Assembly: GCA_020073665.1 (NCBI GenBank)
Contig: JAIQEU010000009.1
Coordinates: 1 to 64,000, forward strand
Origin: Terriglobia bacterium
GTDB taxonomy: Bacteria; Acidobacteriota; Terriglobia; Terriglobales; Acidobacteriaceae
DNA length: 64,000 nt
Direction: 5' to 3'
Shown here: in pieces, positions 46,959 to 62,178 of the stretch
How the letters are laid out: every line of letters begins with the position of its first letter
How positions within the stretch are numbered: the stretch's first letter is position 1
Made by a program: the position numbers and the translations under genes
The notes under the pieces: model-generated
The model's input: the letters and a program-made list of their open reading frames with translations, nothing else
What the model was told of the DNA's origin: nothing
Database searches by the model: none

Positions 46959-47684
46959 TCAGCGGTTCGGTTCGCGCTGCCGCAACCAATCCAGGAACAT
47001 CTGCTCGATCGGTTTGTCATAAGTCATCATCATGTGGCGAACGGTGTGGCCGCTCACGAAGTGGCAAACTTCTTCGGCGATGTTCTTGGCGTGGTCGCCG
47101 GCGCGCTCCAAGGACTGGGTCATGAAAATGACCTGCAGGCTGGCTTGCCGCTGCAGGTTCTCCGGGTTCTCGATGTGTCGCAGGAAAATCAGGTTGCGCA
47201 GGCGATCCATCTCGGCGTCGGCGCGTAGGACGTCAATCGCCTTCTTGACGTCGCGGCCGGAGAACGCCGCCCCCACGTCGGTGAGCATTTTCTCCAGGAT
47301 AGTCGCCATCTGGGTCAGATCCCGGGTGTCCTGCGGATCCAGGCGCGTGCCGGCGCCCTGGGCGCTGCTGGCGAAGCTGAGCAGCAAGTCGCCAATGCGC
47401 TCCACGCCGATCGTGATCTTCATGCAGGCCAGCAATTCCCTGGCCTCGGTCGGGCCCACTTGCGTGATGGCTAGGGTCACGCCATCATCAATTTCCCGGT
47501 CAAGATTATCGAGTTCCTTCTCCCGCTGGCGCAGGCTGCTGAGCAGAGGAGAAGACGCGGTGGCTATGCCCTCGGCAGCGGCGCCAGCCGCCTCTTTGGC
47601 TAAGCGGCAAGCCTCAATCGTGAGTCTCACCAAGTGAGCGTAAGAGGGGTCTGGCGCCTCGTTCGTCACACTGGCAGTACTCAT
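46959..47684 (-). CDS. phoU: PhoU-family phosphate signalling protein
   Basis: The 241-residue all-helical protein has two PhoU repeats. The first includes LLSSLRQREKELDNLDREIDDGVTLAITQVGPTEARELLACMKITIGVERIGDLLLSFASS. The second includes EKMLTDVGAAFSGRDVKKAIDVLRADAEMDRLRNLIF and SLERAGDHAKNIAEEVCHFVSGHTVRH. The ERIGD and ERAGDHAKNIAEEV metal-site motifs are clear. PhoU links Pst transport to PhoR. The start at 47684 is picked for spacing to GGAGG; an ATG 6 bases upstream is also in frame. It follows phoB-phoR on the same strand, separated by 168 bases. No pst transporter genes are in the window. Confidence 0.92.
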   Translation of the reverse strand: MSTASVTNEAPDPSYAHLVRLTIEACRLAKEAAGAAAEGIATASSPLLSSLRQREKELDNLDREIDDGVTLAITQVGPTEARELLACMKITIGVERIGDLLLSFASSAQGAGTRLDPQDTRDLTQMATILEKMLTDVGAAFSGRDVKKAIDVLRADAEMDRLRNLIFLRHIENPENLQRQASLQVIFMTQSLERAGDHAKNIAEEVCHFVSGHTVRHMMMTYDKPIEQMFLDWLRQREPNR

Positions 47685-47852
47685 GCGCATATCCCTCCGC
47701 TGGACAATTGGCCGTAGGCGAGCCTGGCCGGTCCACGTCCGCTGGTTAGTTAGATTCGTCGCCAAGATGAAACGATAGGTTGTTTTTTCATGCCCATGGT
47801 TAAAAACAGGTGAATTTTTCGATTGTCAGTGGGCGACGTTCAACGACGCGCC

Positions 47853-49571
47853 TCAAGCAGCGTTGGCCGTGGGCAAGGTAAACAGGAAGGTGGAGCCATG
47901 GTTCAGTTCGCTTTCGGCACGAATCGTACCTCCATGGGCGAGCACAATGTGCTTGGCGATAGCCAGGCCGAGGCCGGTGCCTCCGGACTCCCGCGAGCGG
48001 GCTTTGTCTACACGGTAGAAGCGCTCGAACAATCGCGGCAGGTGCTCTGATGGGATGCCGGGTCCAAGATCGCGAACGTAGAATTCCATCGCATTGCCGG
48101 ATGCGCGTGCTCCCAACAGGATCCGTTTTCCGGAACCACCGTACTTCAGGGCGTTGTCGATGAGGTTCGAAAACACCTGGTGAATGGCCTCGCGGTCGGC
48201 TAGCACGGCACCTGGTGTGCTGTTTTCGACGGCCAGCTCAATCCCCAGCGCGCGCGCCACTTCGCGAAAGCTCTGCATGGCTTCCTGCAGCAGTTCTTCC
48301 GAGCCTACCGGCTGAACGTCGAAGCGATGTTCCCCGGATTCCACTCTGGCCAGGGTCAGCAAGTCTTCGGTCAGGCGCGACATACGCGTGGCATTTTTGC
48401 GAATAATCTCCAGAAAATCGCGCGCGTGATCGTTCTCGGGCGTGGTGTCGAGCAAGGTCTCGGTGTAACCCTGGATCGAGGTCAACGGGGTCCGCAGTTC
48501 GTGGGAGACATTGGCGATGAAGTCGCGGCGAGTTTTCTCCACGCGCTCAGTCTCGGTAAGGTCGCGGAGCACGGCCACCGAGCCGCCGCCGGGCAGGGGG
48601 GCGGCGGTGACGTCGAAGGTGTGTCCCGGAAGGATGGAGGCGGCGCGGGCGGTAAGCACCTTACGAGTCTCGCTGGCGCCGCGGACTGCCTGCAAGAAGT
48701 CAGGATCGCGAACCGTTTCCACCAGCGGTGCCTGCAAGCGGGTGCGCTGCGGCACCAGTTTGTCCATGGTCTGATTGGCCCACTGCACGCGATCGTCGGG
48801 GCCCACCGCGATCACAGCGTCTTGCATGCTGTTAAGCAGCGTTTCCAACTGGCGCTGGCTGGTCTGCAGGGCCGCGAAGTTTTCCTCAACGTGGTGGGCG
48901 GTCTTGTCCAAGGCTGCGGCTAACTGTCCGATTTCATCGCCCGAAGTCTCCTCGATGCGGGCCCCGAGTTCTCCAGCCGCCAACCGGCTGGCAAAGCGCT
49001 CAATCCTCTGCAGTCGCTTTGCCGTCGACCGGGCGGCGATTGCGGCGATCACGATAGCTACCAGGAAGGCCAGCGCCGACCCCAGCAGCAGCCTCCGCCG
49101 GCTAGTCGCCGTGGCTGCCTCGACATCGGAAAGCGGGTACGCCAGGCGGACTGCGCCGCCGGAAATCGGGGCCGCGACGTACAAGAAAGGTACCCCGAGG
49201 GTGTGACTGGTCCGCGTGTTGCTGCCCACCTCCCCTTTCAACGCCGCCACAAACTCCGGACGCCGGGCGTGGTTCTCCATGGAGGAGGCCACGGCTTCGG
49301 AATCGGCCAGAACCTTGCCCTTGGCATCGATCACGGTGGCACGGGCGCCAGCGGCCTGCCCTTCCTGGGCGGCGATGTCCTGAATGTTGTGCTCGCGGTC
49401 GGTGTTGACCCGGTTGGCAAACAGCAACGTCTTTTGGGTGAGATTGCGCTTGATCTCGACGTTCAGAGAATCTTCCCAGGCACGCCGGATAGAAAAATCC
49501 AGCGTCAGCGTGGCGGCCAGAATCACCAGCGCAAACGCTGCCAAGAGCTTGAAGAAGATGCGATTCCTCAC
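47853..49571 (-). CDS. phoR: PhoR-type sensor histidine kinase
   Basis: The 572-residue protein has a membrane helix at about 7-28, a periplasmic region of some 130 residues, and a second helix near 160-182 (LLLGSALAFLVAIVIAAIA). Then come a HAMP domain (RIERFASRLAAGELGARIEETSGDEIGQLAAAL), a PAS domain (LETLLNSMQDAVIAVGPDDRVQWAN) and the HisKA/HATPase core (FIANVSHELRTPLTSIQGYTETLLDT, FSNLIDNALKYG, FYVRDLGPGIPSEHLPRLFERFYRVDKARSRESGGTGLGLAI). The PAS-HisKA layout is that of PhoR. Its ATG overlaps the phoB stop (ATGA), so the pair is translationally coupled. It senses phosphate status, probably via PhoU. Confidence 0.92.
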   Translation of the reverse strand: MRNRIFFKLLAAFALVILAATLTLDFSIRRAWEDSLNVEIKRNLTQKTLLFANRVNTDREHNIQDIAAQEGQAAGARATVIDAKGKVLADSEAVASSMENHARRPEFVAALKGEVGSNTRTSHTLGVPFLYVAAPISGGAVRLAYPLSDVEAATATSRRRLLLGSALAFLVAIVIAAIAARSTAKRLQRIERFASRLAAGELGARIEETSGDEIGQLAAALDKTAHHVEENFAALQTSQRQLETLLNSMQDAVIAVGPDDRVQWANQTMDKLVPQRTRLQAPLVETVRDPDFLQAVRGASETRKVLTARAASILPGHTFDVTAAPLPGGGSVAVLRDLTETERVEKTRRDFIANVSHELRTPLTSIQGYTETLLDTTPENDHARDFLEIIRKNATRMSRLTEDLLTLARVESGEHRFDVQPVGSEELLQEAMQSFREVARALGIELAVENSTPGAVLADREAIHQVFSNLIDNALKYGGSGKRILLGARASGNAMEFYVRDLGPGIPSEHLPRLFERFYRVDKARSRESGGTGLGLAIAKHIVLAHGGTIRAESELNHGSTFLFTLPTANAA

Positions 49572-55621: not shown

Positions 55622-56449
55622 ATGTCTCTGCGTGCTGCGAATACTGCCCGGCCAGGGAAACCAGAGCTTTTAGGAATTCCTTTCGACGCCAACTCATCTT
55701 TCTTGCGCGGCGCCGCAGGTGCGCCGCCACTTATTCGCGAGGCCTTCCGCTGCGACGCGTCCAATCTCTGGACTGAAACCGGGGTTGATCTGGGAGAGGA
55801 ATCTGCGTTTGCGGATGCTGGCGACCTGGATCTTTCCTCTGGCGACGCCTTCGCGGCCATCGAGCGTGGGGTCGGTAACCTGCTGGACGCCGGGCATCGG
55901 CCGCTCTGCCTGGGCGGCGACCATTCGATTACTTATCCTATCCTGCGAGCCGTCGGCAGAAACTACAAAGACCTCACCATCGTTCACTTCGATGCGCATC
56001 CCGATCTCTACGACGAATTGCAGGGCAACCGTCTTTCTCACGCTTGTCCCTTCGCAAGGATCATGGAGGAACGCCTGGCCAAGCGTCTCGTCCAGATCGG
56101 CATCCGCACCATGAATGGGCACCAGCGGGAGCAGGCCGATCGTTTTGGGGTGGAAGTCGTGACTATGCAAGACCTGCCGGCCCTCGACGAACTGAAACAA
56201 TTGCAGGGGCCCATCTACATCACCTTCGACATGGACGTTCTCGATCCTGCGTTCGCCCCGGGAATCTCACATCGCGAACCGGGAGGCATGTCGGTGCGGG
56301 AGGTGATTGCGCATCTCCATGCCATCAGCGGCCGGATCATTGCGGCCGATCTGGTCGAGTACAACCCACAGCAGGATGTTTCGCAACTTACTGCCATGGT
56401 CGCAGGGAAAATCCTGAAGGAAGTTCTGGGCAAAATGATTGCCGGCTAA
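55622..56449 (+). CDS. Agmatinase/arginase-family ureohydrolase
   Basis: The 275-residue protein has the binuclear manganese site of ureohydrolases: LCLGGDHSIT, TIVHFDAHPDLYDE and ITFDMDVLDPAFAPGISHREPGGMSVREVI. These match agmatinase (SpeB) and related enzymes better than classical arginase. It would split urea or a guanidino group from agmatine or a similar compound. GGAGA lies 5 bases before the chosen ATG; the frame runs 32 codons further upstream. It diverges from sucA by 120 bases. The true guanidino substrate cannot be fixed from the motifs. Confidence 0.85.
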   Translation: MSLRAANTARPGKPELLGIPFDANSSFLRGAAGAPPLIREAFRCDASNLWTETGVDLGEESAFADAGDLDLSSGDAFAAIERGVGNLLDAGHRPLCLGGDHSITYPILRAVGRNYKDLTIVHFDAHPDLYDELQGNRLSHACPFARIMEERLAKRLVQIGIRTMNGHQREQADRFGVEVVTMQDLPALDELKQLQGPIYITFDMDVLDPAFAPGISHREPGGMSVREVIAHLHAISGRIIAADLVEYNPQQDVSQLTAMVAGKILKEVLGKMIAG

Positions 56450-56487
56450 ACTGCACCACTGGCTTTGATCTAAAGAGATGGTGATCT

Positions 56488-56880
56488 ATGAATTCCACTG
56501 ACAACGGCGTGGTCCACGACCCGAGCCCAAGCTCCGTTCCGGAAACCTTGCAGAAACTTGAGGCTGTCCTCGCGGCCCGCGGCCTGACCGTCTTTGCCCG
56601 GGTAGGCCACAGCGGTGAAGCCGAAAAAATTGGGCTCAACATGCGTCCCACACAGCTATTGATTTTCGGTAGTCCAAAAGCCGGGACACCGCTCATGGTT
56701 GCCGCGCCCAGCCTCGCGATTGACCTGCCGCTGAAAGTGCTGGCCTGGGAAGATGAGCAAGGCAAAGTCTGGCTCTCCTACAACAGTCCCGAATACCTCA
56801 AGCAGCGACACCAGGTGCCTGAAAGCCTGATCAAGAACATCGCGGGAGTTGGTGCGCTGGTGCAAAAGGCGGTAGAGTAA
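56488..56880 (+). CDS. DUF302-domain protein
   Basis: The 130-residue protein carries a DUF302 fold: VPETLQKLEAVLAARGLTVFARVGHSGEAEKIGLNMRPTQLLIFGSPKAGTPLMVAAPSLAIDLPLKVLAWEDEQGKVWLSYN. These small alpha/beta proteins occur widely, alone or fused, and their function is unknown. No signal peptide is present. It lies 38 bases after the agmatinase-family gene in the same direction and 19 bases before a DUF202 gene. Confidence 0.85.
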   Translation: MNSTDNGVVHDPSPSSVPETLQKLEAVLAARGLTVFARVGHSGEAEKIGLNMRPTQLLIFGSPKAGTPLMVAAPSLAIDLPLKVLAWEDEQGKVWLSYNSPEYLKQRHQVPESLIKNIAGVGALVQKAVE

Positions 56881-56899
56881 TCGGTCGCAAAAACGCTGA

Positions 56900-57286
56900 A
56901 TGCCAGACCAACAATACCCCGCTCGGGCCCGCGATCACCTGGCCAATGAACGCACGTTCCTGGCTTGGGTGCGCACAGGTGTGGCGGTGGTCGTTTTCGG
57001 ATTTGCCATCGGGCGTTTCGCGGTCGCCATACGCGAACTGTTCCAGTTGCAGGGTCACGCCCCCCGAACCGCGGGCTTGTCGGTATGGTTTGGAATCGTG
57101 GCCATTGTTACCGGAGTCATACTGGTATTCGCCGGCTTGAACCGCTACCGGAGGACACGGGCTCAACTGGATTCAGGTTCGTTTGAGCCGGCCGGTTTCG
57201 TGATTGACCTGGTGGCCATCTTCACCGTGGTATTCGGCCTCGCACTGGCCGGATATCTGTTTTATATCCAGCGGAGCTTGCGGTAG
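56900..57286 (+). CDS. DUF202 membrane protein (YidH family)
   Basis: The 128-residue protein has the family signature RDHLANERTFLAWVRTGVAVVVFGFAIGRFAV (about 9-40), then two more membrane helices (SVWFGIVAIVTGVILVFAGL and FVIDLVAIFTVVFGLALAGYLFYI). DUF202 proteins such as E. coli YidH are small inner-membrane proteins of unknown role. It starts 19 bases after the DUF302 gene and ends 5 bases before rpiA, so the three are probably one transcript. Confidence 0.88.
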   Translation: MPDQQYPARARDHLANERTFLAWVRTGVAVVVFGFAIGRFAVAIRELFQLQGHAPRTAGLSVWFGIVAIVTGVILVFAGLNRYRRTRAQLDSGSFEPAGFVIDLVAIFTVVFGLALAGYLFYIQRSLR

Positions 57287-57291
57287 TCCCC

Positions 57292-57981
57292 ATGCCCAAC
57301 GATCAGGAAAAGGAAGCCGCCGCCCGCGCCAGCTTGCGCTTCGTCCGGGACGGCGACATTGTGGGCCTGGGCTCAGGCTCGACCGCTGCCTGCGCCATTC
57401 GGTTGCTGGGCGACAAGGTTAAAGCGGGACTCAGGATTCGCGGCATCGCGACCTCGGTGCGCTCTCAGGAACTGGCCGCTAGCTTGGGAATCCCAATAAT
57501 AACCTTCGATGAGTGTCAGCAGTTAGACGTGGCCATTGACGGCGCCGATGAAATCGATCCCCAACTCTGCCTGATTAAAGGCGGAGGCGGCGCCCTGTTG
57601 CGGGAAAAGGTTGTGGCTTCGGCGGCCCGGCAATTTGTAGTGATCGCGGATTCCAGCAAGCAGGTCTCGCTGCTGGGAAAGTTCCCGCTGCCGGTCGAAG
57701 TCATCCCCTTCGCGCAGATACTGGTCGCAAGAAGGATTACCGCCCTAGGGGCAGCCGTCAACCTCCGCAAATCTCCCCAAGGCAATCCCTACACCACCGA
57801 CGAGGGCCATCACATCCTGGACTGCACCTTCGGCCAGATTCCTGATCCCGCCGCGCTCGCGCGCGTGCTGAGCGATATGCCGGGCGTGGTGGAGCACGGG
57901 CTTTTCATCGGGATGGCGAACGTGGTGCTGATAGGAAAGGGAGACAAGGTACTGGAGCTCAGCCCGACGACTAAGACCTAA
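57292..57981 (+). CDS. rpiA: Ribose-5-phosphate isomerase A
   Basis: The 229-residue protein has the RpiA active site: GDIVGLGSGSTAACAIRLLGDK (phosphate loop), VAIDGADEIDPQLCLIKGGGGALLREKVVASAARQFVVIADSSK (catalytic Asp/Glu pair and Lys) and YTTDEGHHILDCTFGQI. Length is normal (220-230). Unrelated in fold to RpiB encoded at 22657-23106. It ends a short plus-strand run with the DUF302 and DUF202 genes. Confidence 0.95.
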   Translation: MPNDQEKEAAARASLRFVRDGDIVGLGSGSTAACAIRLLGDKVKAGLRIRGIATSVRSQELAASLGIPIITFDECQQLDVAIDGADEIDPQLCLIKGGGGALLREKVVASAARQFVVIADSSKQVSLLGKFPLPVEVIPFAQILVARRITALGAAVNLRKSPQGNPYTTDEGHHILDCTFGQIPDPAALARVLSDMPGVVEHGLFIGMANVVLIGKGDKVLELSPTTKT

Positions 57982-58010
57982 CGGGCCGCCCCAGTACCTT
58001 GCTTCTGCGA

Positions 58011-59234
58011 TCAGTGAATCGGGGGTGGAAGATTCGCGTCCAGAGTGAATACCACGCCATCCGGCACACCCTGCGACACCGTACCGCCGCCAAACGTTGC
58101 TCCGACGAGGCTCCCGTCCGCTGCCTGGATTAGTTCCGACTGCGGGAACGCGCCGTTCGTGCCACTGAAAGAGATGGTCTGCAGCACGCTGCCATCATTC
58201 GCAGAAACCTGCACAATAGTGCCGTCGTTGCTCTGCCCGCCATTCCCCTGAGTGCTCCAGAAGTTCCCGTCGCTGGCCAACAATAACCGGCTTCCGTTAA
58301 GGCTGTTAGAGAGTGTTATGTCGGGAAACGTTTGGAAGTTGCTGCCGTCGAGTCCGACCTCAAACAAGGCCTGAATGCTGCGGAACGCCGGAGTGGTCAA
58401 GCCAAAAAGATTACCGTTTGTGCCCTGGGTAAGAGGAGTGAGCGGAATGGAAAGCTGTTCGATGTGGGTGACGATGGAGAACCTGCCCGCCGGAGTAACC
58501 TTGTAGACGTTGCCGTCGGTGTTAAATCCTTCGTCACTGCCGTAGAAGTTTCCATCGGACGCCTGGATGAAACGGGTGGGCTGGAAGCCTTCGGTGGGCC
58601 CTCCCAGGGAATGAATCACCCTGAACGAGCCAGTGGCCACCGTGACCTTAAAGATCGTGCCGCATCCGTTGCTAAGCGGGCAACCGCTGTTGCTTCCTCC
58701 TGTAGCGGTGACGCCATAGATGTTGCCATCGGTGGCGGCGGTCACACCCACAGGATTGGAGCCGTCGGCGCACCCCGCCGCCGAGCAGAACGTGTGCAGA
58801 ACCCTGAATCCAGCGCCGTTCTTGGCGATACGAAACAGGACGCCAGCACTGTGCGTGCCCCCGAAAACGGTGGTGCCGTATAGGTTCCCGTCCGCGCCTT
58901 CGACCATTTCGCCCGGCTGGGTTCCTCCCGGGAAGTTCTTGTTTACGCCCGGACGAAATGTGTGCAGCAGTGTGAATTGCCCGCCGGGAGTGATCTTGAA
59001 CAGTGATCCGCCCTGGGGGTTCGAAGTGCCGACTGAACTGGCTAAAGACAAGCCGTAGAAATTGCCGTCGGAAGCCTGGATGACTCTGTCAGGATTGCCG
59101 CCGTTGGGGCAGCTCTTGAGCTGACCGCTTCCTTGGCAGGAAAACGCGAATAACTGCACGGGCACAGGGGTTTGGCCAAAAGCCTGTGCGAAAACGAACA
59201 GTGTGAGCAAGAGTGGGAGAACCAGATATTTCAT
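58011..59234 (-). CDS. Secreted GloVer-type tandem-repeat protein
   Basis: The 407-residue protein has a signal peptide (YLVLPLLLTLFVFAQAFGQ) and then repeats of about 50-60 residues with the pattern G-x-LY/FG-x(1-4)-G-G... LFKIT...FTLLHTF, for example DGNLYGTTVFGGTHSAGVLFRIAKNGAGFRVLHTF and DGNIYGVTATGGSNSGCPLSNGCGTIFKVTVATGSFRVIHSL. This is the GloVer (Gloeobacter-Verrucomicrobia) repeat, expected to form a beta-propeller-like structure on the cell surface or outside. Six or so repeats are present. GAGGAG lies 7 bases before the ATG at 59234. Function is unknown; such genes are common in Acidobacteria. Confidence 0.88.
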   Translation of the reverse strand: MKYLVLPLLLTLFVFAQAFGQTPVPVQLFAFSCQGSGQLKSCPNGGNPDRVIQASDGNFYGLSLASSVGTSNPQGGSLFKITPGGQFTLLHTFRPGVNKNFPGGTQPGEMVEGADGNLYGTTVFGGTHSAGVLFRIAKNGAGFRVLHTFCSAAGCADGSNPVGVTAATDGNIYGVTATGGSNSGCPLSNGCGTIFKVTVATGSFRVIHSLGGPTEGFQPTRFIQASDGNFYGSDEGFNTDGNVYKVTPAGRFSIVTHIEQLSIPLTPLTQGTNGNLFGLTTPAFRSIQALFEVGLDGSNFQTFPDITLSNSLNGSRLLLASDGNFWSTQGNGGQSNDGTIVQVSANDGSVLQTISFSGTNGAFPQSELIQAADGSLVGATFGGGTVSQGVPDGVVFTLDANLPPPIH

Positions 59235-59407: not shown

Positions 59408-60676
59408 TTAACTGACAATCTCTGCAAGCGCCGCCAGCAATCGATCCACCTCTTCCGCCGTGTTGTAGTGCGCCAAGCCAATGCGCAGGAACCCACCGTC
59501 CTTTTCCACATCAAGGCGCTCGGTTAGGTTCAGCGCGTAATAGTTCCCGTCCCAGGTGAAAAAGCCGCGCTCTCCCAGCTTGGTGGCAAGTTCCAGCGGC
59601 GTGTGTCCCTGGATGCGCACCGCCACCGTCGGACAACGTTGCTCGAAGCGTGCAGCGTCGCGAATGCCGTAGAGCGTCAGCCCGGTAATTTTCAGCAACC
59701 CACTCACCAGGCGCTCGCACAGTCCACGCTCGTAGGACTGGATCGCTGAGTAGGCGGCCAGCACGGCGGCCCGCCTGGTGCCCGCTGCCGGGTCCACGCG
59801 CCGCCCGAGATCGGCCAGATACTCCACGCACGCCGTAATTCCGGCAATGCATTCGTGGTTGAGTGTGCCCCATTCCCAGCGATTGGGAATTGCGTTCGTG
59901 TTCGCTCGTACTTTGTAGGGCTGCAGCCGCTTCAGGTGCTCGCGCTTGCCGTAGAGCACGCCCATGTGCGGCCCGAAGAACTTGTAGGTGGAGCAAACCA
60001 GGAAATCGCAATCCAGCGCGCGGACATCAATCGGCCCGTGGGGCGCATAGTGGACAGCGTCGATGTATGCCATCGCCCCGGACGCGTGGGCAATGCGCAC
60101 GATTTCTTTCACTGGATTAACAGTGCCGACTGCATTTGACGCGTATCCCGCCGCCACCAGCCGGGTATGGCCGGTCACTTTGCGGGCCATGTCAGCCATG
60201 TTGAGGGTGCAATCGGCCTCATTCACGTCCACGAACCGCACCGTGGCGCCGGTCTCCTGCAGCGCGCGCCAGGGCGAAACGTTGGCGTCGTGATCGAGTT
60301 GGGTCAGGACGATCTCATTGCCCGGCCCTAATTCGCGCCCGATAGCCCGGCTCATGGCGAAGGTCAACGTGGTCATGTTGGGGCCAAAGACGATTTCATC
60401 CGCGTCACAGCCCAGCAGGTCGGCCATGGCCGCGCGGGCTTCGTCGAGCACTGCGTTCGTCCGGTAACTGGTGGCATAGGCGCCATTGGTATTGGCGTTG
60501 GAGTGCTTCAGGTAATCGCTGATCGCTGAAATCACTCGCTGCGGGACCTGGGTGCCGCCGGGACCGTCCAGAAATACCACGGGATACCCGTTGACTGTCT
60601 CCGCCAGAGAAGGGAATTGGGAACGGATCCAGGTGAGATCCAGTGTCGTAGTCACAGCACTTTGCGTAGTCAGCAT
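59408..60676 (-). CDS. Cysteine desulfurase-like class V aminotransferase
   Basis: The 422-residue protein is a fold-I PLP enzyme of the SufS/class V group. Seen: VVFLDGPGGTQVPQRVISAISDYL (cofactor entry), ANTNGAYATSYRTNAVLDEARAAMADLLGCDADEIVFGPNMTTLTFAMSRA, IDAVHYAPHGPIDVRALDCDFLVCSTYKFFGPHMGVLYG with the PLP Lys in STYKFFG, and RIGLAHYNTAEEVDRLLAAL. The LDGPGGTQVP opening is that of the cysteine desulfurase-like subgroup, not of housekeeping IscS/SufS. No scaffold or SUF genes lie nearby. It follows homoserine dehydrogenase by 50 bases on the same strand. Confidence 0.85.
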   Translation of the reverse strand: MLTTQSAVTTTLDLTWIRSQFPSLAETVNGYPVVFLDGPGGTQVPQRVISAISDYLKHSNANTNGAYATSYRTNAVLDEARAAMADLLGCDADEIVFGPNMTTLTFAMSRAIGRELGPGNEIVLTQLDHDANVSPWRALQETGATVRFVDVNEADCTLNMADMARKVTGHTRLVAAGYASNAVGTVNPVKEIVRIAHASGAMAYIDAVHYAPHGPIDVRALDCDFLVCSTYKFFGPHMGVLYGKREHLKRLQPYKVRANTNAIPNRWEWGTLNHECIAGITACVEYLADLGRRVDPAAGTRRAAVLAAYSAIQSYERGLCERLVSGLLKITGLTLYGIRDAARFEQRCPTVAVRIQGHTPLELATKLGERGFFTWDGNYYALNLTERLDVEKDGGFLRIGLAHYNTAEEVDRLLAALAEIVS

Positions 60677-60726: not shown

Positions 60727-61740
60727 TCAGCCCGTCACTGCCCTGACAAAATCAGCCAGCATGCCGTAGGCGGTTGCGTCCACTCCCGGATGGTTCTCGG
60801 TAATCGCCAGCCCGGGAAAAATGTCCGTCTCAAAATACACGATGGACGAGGTTCCCGCGACCCACGCCATGGGGTCGCTCAACGGCACGTGCTCCGGGCG
60901 GACGCTAGCCTTCACTGTATTCCCATCGCGGCGGGCGCGGCACACCAATTTGTAGGGCCTGCCTTCGGCGCGAGCGGCACGCACCTTTTCGCCCGTCAGG
61001 CCGCCGATTCCTTGGCGTTGGATGTCGGTGAGCGCAATTCGCGTTTCCATCAGCACCGTGACCAGCGCAGCCACCTTCACTGCCGCATCCCAACCCTCAA
61101 TATCGTGACTGGCATCGGTTTCCGCGACGCCGATCTCCTGGGCCTTCTGCAGTGCCTGCTCGAACGTGAGCCCTTCCTCCATACCGCTGAGAATCACGTT
61201 GGTGGTGGAGTTAAGAATCCCATGAAAGCCGCGCAGCTGGATCGCCGGCAGACTGTCCCGGAACATCGAGAAGATCGGTACTCCGTCCATCACCGTGGAT
61301 TCGAACAGGAACCGTTTGCCCTTAGCTGCAGCCAGCGCGCGCAATTCCTCGTAGGCATGAACGATGGGGCCTTTATTGGCGGTGATGGCATGCGCTCCCA
61401 CCTCGAGGGCAGCGCGGATGTGATCGATGGCTGGCTGGCCGGTCGCGGGATTTAGAGACGTGGCCTCAAACAGCACGTCGCACCGCGCGGCTCGCAGCCA
61501 CTCGCCGGTATTGCGAGGCGCAGGCACTCCCGCCCGGGCAGCGGCCGATGGCTCACCTACCCAGTCAGAAACGTTCAGTCCTTCGGGATCCGCAATCCAA
61601 CCCAGCCTTCGCGTAGCCACGCCGGTCACGCGCCAGGCGATGCCTTTTGCCGCGAGCTCTGGTTGCTTGTCACGGAGCAGGCGAACCAAGGTCCGGTTCA
61701 CATTACCGAATCCGAGCAGGCACAGGTTGTAGGTCTGAAT
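60727..61740 (-). CDS. Homoserine dehydrogenase, probable ATT start
   Basis: The protein (337 residues from the ATT) reduces aspartate semialdehyde to homoserine. HITANKGPIVHAYEELRALAAAKGKRFLFESTVMDGVPIFSM, LNSTTNVILSGMEEGLTFEQALQKAQEIGVAETDASHDIEGWDAAVKVAALV are typical of the short archaeal-type enzyme. The first standard start, GTG at 61701, lies inside the NAD(P)-binding GxGxV motif (LLGFGNVNRTLV). In-frame sequence upstream to the TAG at 61772-61774 has no ATG, GTG or TTG. An ATT at 61740-61738 gives IQTYNLCLLGFGNV and has AGGAG 5 bases before it, so it is the likely start. Confidence 0.85.
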   Translation of the reverse strand: MQTYNLCLLGFGNVNRTLVRLLRDKQPELAAKGIAWRVTGVATRRLGWIADPEGLNVSDWVGEPSAAARAGVPAPRNTGEWLRAARCDVLFEATSLNPATGQPAIDHIRAALEVGAHAITANKGPIVHAYEELRALAAAKGKRFLFESTVMDGVPIFSMFRDSLPAIQLRGFHGILNSTTNVILSGMEEGLTFEQALQKAQEIGVAETDASHDIEGWDAAVKVAALVTVLMETRIALTDIQRQGIGGLTGEKVRAARAEGRPYKLVCRARRDGNTVKASVRPEHVPLSDPMAWVAGTSSIVYFETDIFPGLAITENHPGVDATAYGMLADFVRAVTG

Positions 61741-61779
61741 GGTAGCTCCTGGGATTCTCGCCGTCGGACTTGGCTATGC

Positions 61780-62178
61780 CTACCCCATCATGCTGGCGTG
61801 TTCGGGTTGGATCTTGTACAGCACCCGCACCTCTCCGGGCTGCCCGTAGGGATACTTGTCCGCATCCAGATACTTCTTCGCCATCTTGTCGATGTGCTGC
61901 AGGGCGCCCTCCTCCGTGATCTCTACCACTCGGCCGCGAATTTCCAGGTAACGGTAGGGATTGTCAGGATCGATGATGGCCAGAGCCACTCGCGGATCAC
62001 GGCGCAGGTTGCGATCCTTCTGGCGGCCCTTGGCGGAATTGATTATTACGTGCGAGCCATCAAAGTCGCACCACACTGGTGTCACCTGCGGACGGCCATC
62101 GGGCATGATGGTGGCCAGGCTGGCAAAGGCGCGCTTGTTGAACAGATCGCGGTATTTCTCGGGAATGGCTTCAGACAT
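61780..62178 (-). CDS. PPOX-class (pyridoxamine-oxidase-fold) F420/FMN-dependent protein
   Basis: The 132-residue protein is a split-barrel flavin or F420 protein: LFNKRAFASLATIMPDGRPQVTPVWCDFDGSHVIINSAKGRQKDRNLRRDPRVALAIIDPDNPYRYLEIRGRVVEIT. The PDGRPQVTPVW and RKDRNLRRDPRVAL-type segments match the PPOX-class F420-dependent oxidoreductases (TIGR03618-like). Length is typical. It could reduce an unsaturated or nitro compound with F420H2. Whether this organism makes F420 cannot be judged from the window. Confidence 0.85.
   Translation of the reverse strand: MSEAIPEKYRDLFNKRAFASLATIMPDGRPQVTPVWCDFDGSHVIINSAKGRQKDRNLRRDPRVALAIIDPDNPYRYLEIRGRVVEITEEGALQHIDKMAKKYLDADKYPYGQPGEVRVLYKIQPEHASMMG

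Follow-up and report, generated by a model that had tools for sequence, protein, structure and literature searches.

A homoserine dehydrogenase gene of Terriglobia with a well-supported ATT start codon, a codon class found in most orthologues from two families

Background

The window analysed here (the whole stretch of 64,000 nucleotides from a Terriglobia bacterium) contains a frame for a homoserine dehydrogenase, hom, whose first canonical start codon falls inside the NAD-binding motif of the protein, and this raises the question of where translation of the gene begins. The original prediction placed the start at an ATT further upstream. Experimentally supported non-AUG starts outside infC were few in the literature searched, and gene finders limited to ATG, GTG and TTG would truncate or miss hom.

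Non-canonical starts under IF3 control are of a known kind, represented by infC and, in the available part of PMC5472188, by sigR of Streptomyces. According to that part, sigR has a GTC start (GTC in 32 of 34 species) that is repressed by IF3, has a strong Shine-Dalgarno (SD) sequence and is mis-annotated in available genomes; repression of non-canonical starts by IF3 is described there for both E. coli and Streptomyces. For Listeria, the accessible portion of PMC13068326 describes six conserved genes with fixed non-canonical starts, including infC (ATT) and rnhC (ATC), and an rsbW reporter with the order ATG > ATA > ATT. Literature searches found no published report of a non-canonical start for any homoserine dehydrogenase or any acidobacterial gene, and no published biosynthetic enzyme with an AUH start kept over whole bacterial families.

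The hom frame and its start site

The following features of the locus were located in the window.

61780..62178, minus strand: F420-dependent PPOX-class oxidoreductase, upstream neighbour, ATG start (TIGR03618, 2e-36)
61774..61776, minus strand: in-frame TAG stop, 12 codons 5′ of the hom ATT (read directly)
61746..61750, minus strand: Shine-Dalgarno AGGAG with a 5-base spacer to the ATT (read directly; an SD word in 60/67 ATH orthologues)
61738..61740, minus strand: predicted hom start codon ATT (lines up with orthologue Met1; no canonical start from the upstream stop to the NAD-binding motif)
61699..61701, minus strand: GTG, first canonical start in the hom frame, inside LLGFGNV, not taken as the start
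60727..61740, minus strand: homoserine dehydrogenase (hom), 337 residues from the ATT (PF00742, 4.5e-45; PF03447, 1e-09)
59408..60676, minus strand: cysteine desulfurase-like class V aminotransferase, downstream neighbour (TIGR01976, 1e-143)

The open frame of hom begins after the TAG at 61776–61774 and ends with a stop codon at 60729–60727 on the minus strand. The leader reads TAG CCA AGT CCG ACG GCG AGA ATC CCA GGA GCT ACC and is followed by ATT (61740–61738), then by CAG ACC TAC AAC CTG TGC CTG CTC GGA TTC GGT AAT and GTG (61701–61699), the last of which encodes the V of LLGFGNV. When the frame was read codon by codon, no ATG, GTG or TTG was present from the TAG at 61776–61774 to the GTG at 61701; both this and the position of the GTG within the motif had been described correctly in the original prediction, which had placed the TAG at 61772–61774, 2 bases off. 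The AGGAG that it reported 5 bases from the ATT was found at 61750–61746.

The PF00742 catalytic domain of the product scored 154 bits (curated cut-off 22.9, E 4.5e-45), and reading from the ATT gave a complete NAD-binding domain (PF03447 positions 1–116 of 116, residues 10–147), restoring the Rossmann strand as had been claimed. All 14 PDB matches at E ≤ 0.001 were named homoserine dehydrogenase. The domains and two lysine positions align with those of short homoserine dehydrogenases (PRK06270 type; PDB 3do5 and 2ejw), the motifs ITANK and DAAVK of hom pairing with ITANK and DAAHK of 2ejw; we take the two aligned lysines to be catalytic. The PRK06270 match, at 282 bits, is below the curated cut-off of 373, and only the start codon is unusual. 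Judged by its domains, the window gene encodes a full-length homoserine dehydrogenase of predicted enzyme function. The nearest named protein records came from metagenome-assembled Terriglobia and Acidobacteriales (Acidobacteriota), at no more than 77% identity.

Start codons of the hom orthologues

A hom orthologue was detected in 32 of 150 relatives at E ≤ 1e-40 and, at E ≤ 1e-60, in 70 of 398 genomes of the family and 93 of 399 of the class; the sets overlap, and that of the class takes in distant homologues. The loci were aligned on the glycine motif, redundant rows (first 300 bases the same) were removed, and rows of at least 300 bits were kept, with Chloroflexi and Firmicutes loci left out, giving 93 distinct orthologues, of which family f1 contributed 67 and family f7 contributed 26. 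Three rows with a missing N-terminus (L026, L075 and L177) were left out, as were rows below 300 bits, including L187 and L188 (ATT and ATC) and the canonical-start homologues of families f6 and f10. No stops were found inside the matched orthologues among the matches listed; one copy (G341) was split over two frames.

The Met1 position was set by reference to the Chloroflexi orthologues (type MPHYKLALLGFGNV), in which codons −3 to +1 included a canonical start at all 30 loci. The codon aligned with it was ATT in 37, ATC in 30 and ATA in 1 of the 93 orthologues, that is, ATH in 68 (47/67 in f1 and 21/26 in f7), and in the other 25 it was ATG (8 rows, in two clades), GTG (2) or another codon (15). 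The original prediction had pointed to orthologues as the place to look for a conserved ATT, and these counts agree with it. ATH orthologues extended down to 54% protein identity. In the distant f6 homologues (14 loci) a canonical start lay three codons further on (TTG 9, GTG 3, ATG 2), and the f10 homologues (3 rows) had ATG one codon further on. Since the homologues of f6 and f10 have canonical starts, the ATH start of hom is, on this alignment, a trait of two families and not of the whole class. In the nine f6 loci with TTG (e.g. L192, L193, L196 and L198) this codon precedes an A, and the resulting TTGA overlaps an out-of-frame TGA, which may reflect coupling to an upstream frame.

In 42 of the 68 ATH rows the frame was free of ATG, GTG and TTG from its preceding stop up to codon 9, and in 50 it was free of them up to codon 5 (the other 18 had one upstream or by codon 5). 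By a like test at the same loci, neighbour genes without a canonical start numbered 0 of 50 (PPOX-class) and 0 of 56 (cysteine desulfurase-like), against 42 of all 93 hom rows (Fisher p 2e-17). Codons −6 to +2 included a canonical start in 4/68 ATH rows versus 22/25 of the other rows (p 2e-14), suggesting that where ATH was lost a canonical start has usually arisen a few codons away. Row L008, with AGT at the start position, had no canonical start nearby, and L015, with GTC, had GTG and TTG only 10–11 codons upstream. The GTC of L015 is the same codon as the start of Streptomyces sigR.

An SD word at a spacer of 3–10 bases was present in 60 of 67 ATH rows and absent, by the rule used, from 7, the leader of one further row being too short to count. 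At four points shifted 12–30 bases further upstream such a word occurred in 2–6 of the 67 rows, and in shuffled leaders in a mean of 11.4 (maximum 22). The core AGGA, GGAG or GAGG preceded ATH in 58/67 rows versus 0–1 at the four shifted points. The anti-SD letters used for scoring were what we take to be the consensus, a pattern search for the 16S tail in the genome of the window having given 0 matches. Position, SD spacing and comparison with relatives make the ATT start of the window hom well supported: as the original prediction proposed, the gene would start at this ATT, which aligns with Chloroflexi Met1, belongs to a codon class present in 68/93 orthologues and is, in such rows, often the only possible start.

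Gene neighbourhood, copy number and other AUH starts

In the window and in many f1 loci, hom lies between the PPOX-class oxidoreductase and the cysteine desulfurase-like gene. The genome of the window also has a second homoserine dehydrogenase (422 residues, ATG start), beside which are a small frame and a longer frame, presumably MoaD/ThiS-like and threonine synthase-like. At least two PF00742 matches were found in 20 of 21 f1 genomes tested. In f7 the match was single and at the place of the orthologue in all eight genomes tested, so the weakly started hom is, as far as the assemblies show, the only gene of its kind in this family; seven of these eight orthologues have ATT or ATC, and one has ATG (G566, L137).

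A scan for AUH starts by codon-usage score and SD word (841 kb, 233 loci) gave 32 hom candidates in 29 loci, infC in 14 loci, one cluster of five in four loci (L195) and six singles; these counts are biased, as the DNA had been chosen for hom, infC and tRNAs, the genomes were partly repeated and many hom rows fell below the threshold. The L195 cluster is perhaps an antisense frame.

A leader hairpin, GGGGCTTYAGCCCC or a near variant of it, was considered in 13 of the 93 rows (e.g. L150, L160 and L167), where it lies just upstream of the SD. Its 14-mer occurred in 2–40 copies per genome in nine genomes searched and the hairpin is absent before the window hom, so it was rejected as part of the explanation; it resembles a small dispersed repeat.

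infC, initiator tRNA and a model for the weak start

Readable infC loci of the class Terriglobia were obtained from the best 30 of 59 genomes with a match (the genome of the window counted once, two loci cut, leaving 28). The start was ATC in 26, ATA in 1 (L219) and unclear in 1 (L223). In the genome of the window it was ATC at L200:1252–1254, and GGAG-type sequence lay upstream there and in the infC loci L201–L230. An ATG, GTG or TTG was present within 24 codons before the infC anchor in 12 of the 28 loci, in the genome of the window as a TTG overlapping the SD region. Given these infC starts (ATC in 26 and ATA in 1 of the 28 loci), IF3 discriminating against AUH is likely at work in these bacteria. 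In vitro, according to the available part of PMC10158994, IF3 lowers the share of full-length product from an AUU/CAU pair.

A tRNA search of the genome of the window gave 76 matches, of which all but one (contig C34) were read. Among 74 distinct tRNAs there was one initiator-type tRNA-Met(CAU) and no initiator-type Ile tRNA, so that the simplest decoder of AUU is fMet-tRNA. An initiator tRNA dedicated to AUH was considered and rejected, the GGG/CCC anticodon stem being found in only one tRNA-Met(CAT) and one tRNA-Gly(TCC) and not in tRNA-Ile(GAT). Beside the ordinary scattered tRNA genes, the 76-kb contig C13 of this genome (G000) carries a dense array of about 30 tRNA genes, many of them low-scoring, at about 47560–48020, 56356–59195 and 65727–66661 (loci L261–L263 and L249); a phage or another kind of mobile element is its probable nature.

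Translation of hom would start at the AUU at 61740–61738 with the ribosome positioned by the AGGAG Shine-Dalgarno, and the ordinary fMet-tRNA (anticodon CAU) would be accepted there despite the third-base mismatch. Such a start would hold synthesis of homoserine dehydrogenase low and would make it sensitive to IF3, as for infC. From known biochemistry we infer fMet initiation, a low rate and IF3 sensitivity of hom, and IF3-dependent control is plausible. Taken as a whole, a full-length hom started at ATT, with ATH kept among relatives and with low and IF3-sensitive translation, is very probably the best explanation of the locus.

That most closer relatives keep ATT, ATC or ATA suggests that the weak start is being preserved, and since 25 of 93 orthologues are without ATH it is not indispensable. 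At the third base of the start codon, parsimony gave about 15 T<->C and about 2 Y>G changes, as a rough measure from one quick tree; the corresponding figures over 95 fourfold sites of hom were 531 (T<->C) and 741 (T/C to G) (Fisher p 2e-4). An internal Ile codon would likewise avoid G, and this comparison is evidence of selection only insofar as the start has been placed here on other grounds. With the start so placed, the AUH codon has apparently been kept over much of the two families by selection against AUG.

The weak start could also do nothing beyond setting a low, constant enzyme level, IF3 having its general effect on non-AUG starts, and to this we give nearly even chances. The TTG three codons on in nine of the 14 f6 loci is likewise a weaker start, and GTG or TTG also serves in several f1 rows; selection may act on low initiation alone. 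No signal changing IF3 activity was seen in this analysis. However, IF3 discriminates against AUH and not against GTG or TTG, which would give modest initiation, and yet 68/93 orthologues keep ATH.

On the reading with an IF3-sensitive start, hom and infC could further form a small AUH-start set under IF3 that ties the supply of Thr/Met/Ile precursor to the balance of IF3 and ribosomes; we offer this extension tentatively, the chances lying somewhat against it. Since hom encodes a biosynthetic enzyme, its product is not expected to act back on the start codon of the gene. If the extension is true, the only homoserine dehydrogenase found in the f7 genomes tested, a growth-essential enzyme, would be IF3-controlled. 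The natural series of ATT, ATC, ATA, ATG, GTG and TTG in hom orthologues is a ready test of the purpose of the weak start.

Like infC, hom has an AUU, AUC or AUA start with an SD just upstream, kept over a wide taxon; it differs in that its codon is now ATT, now ATC, whereas infC here has nearly always ATC. As far as the available part of PMC5472188 describes it, sigR is, like hom, an example outside infC of a conserved non-canonical start with an SD, but it is a GTC/GTT regulator with shown IF3 repression, whereas hom is an ATH metabolic enzyme for which we infer the action of IF3. The Listeria genes, from the portion of PMC13068326 available, share with hom fixed non-canonical starts, theirs within one species and that of hom across two families. 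The original prediction had called ATT starts known mainly for infC: the likeness to infC held, with ATC in 26/28 loci, and "mainly" was slightly narrow in view of two further starts with experimental support, the sigR GTC (PMC5472188) and the Listeria rnhC ATC (PMC13068326), as given in the available parts of both. What makes hom unusual is that it is a biosynthetic enzyme whose start is kept across two families.

Alternative readings of the start site

The ATT might be an internal Ile codon in a frame translated from further upstream, as the ATG, GTG or TTG upstream or by codon 5 in 18/68 ATH rows and a third base that varies as in an Ile codon would allow. We consider this highly improbable. 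Besides the 42/68 rows without a canonical start to codon 9, an in-frame stop lay no more than five codons 5′ of ATH in 10/68 rows and one or two codons before it in L173, L158 and L131 (in L173 immediately before the ATT), which makes an upstream start hard to hold. The SD stands directly before ATH, with none further upstream; there was hardly any conservation upstream of it (0.04–0.20 bits per base at −30 to −11), and protein-like conservation began at the ATH codon. The ratio of ATT to ATC was 37:30 at the start versus 490:1112 at internal Ile codons (p 4e-5).

Removal of an ATG start by a sequencing error or by gene decay has a negligible probability. In its favour, a single base separates ATT from ATG, the genome encodes another homoserine dehydrogenase and the G341 copy is split in two frames, but the same class of codon occurs in 68/93 orthologues from other genomes, the listed matches are free of internal stops, and the orthologue is the sole PF00742 match in the 8/8 f7 genomes tested. 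A sequencing error, named in the original prediction as what would overturn it, is excluded because other assemblies carry the same kind of codon.

Translation of a shorter protein from the GTG at 61701, although this is the first canonical start in the frame, has hardly any probability either: the NAD-binding domain would lose its first strand and its glycine turn, G.G is present in 93/93 rows, the 13 codons before the GTG include conserved residues, and many orthologues have GTC or GTA in its place. Readthrough of the upstream PPOX gene into a fusion protein with hom, for which its TAG (61782–61780) and the TAG at 61776–61774 are in frame with hom, is next to impossible, as it would have to pass two closely spaced stops, and in relatives the PPOX gene is in other frames, farther off or not found in the locus while the ATH stays.
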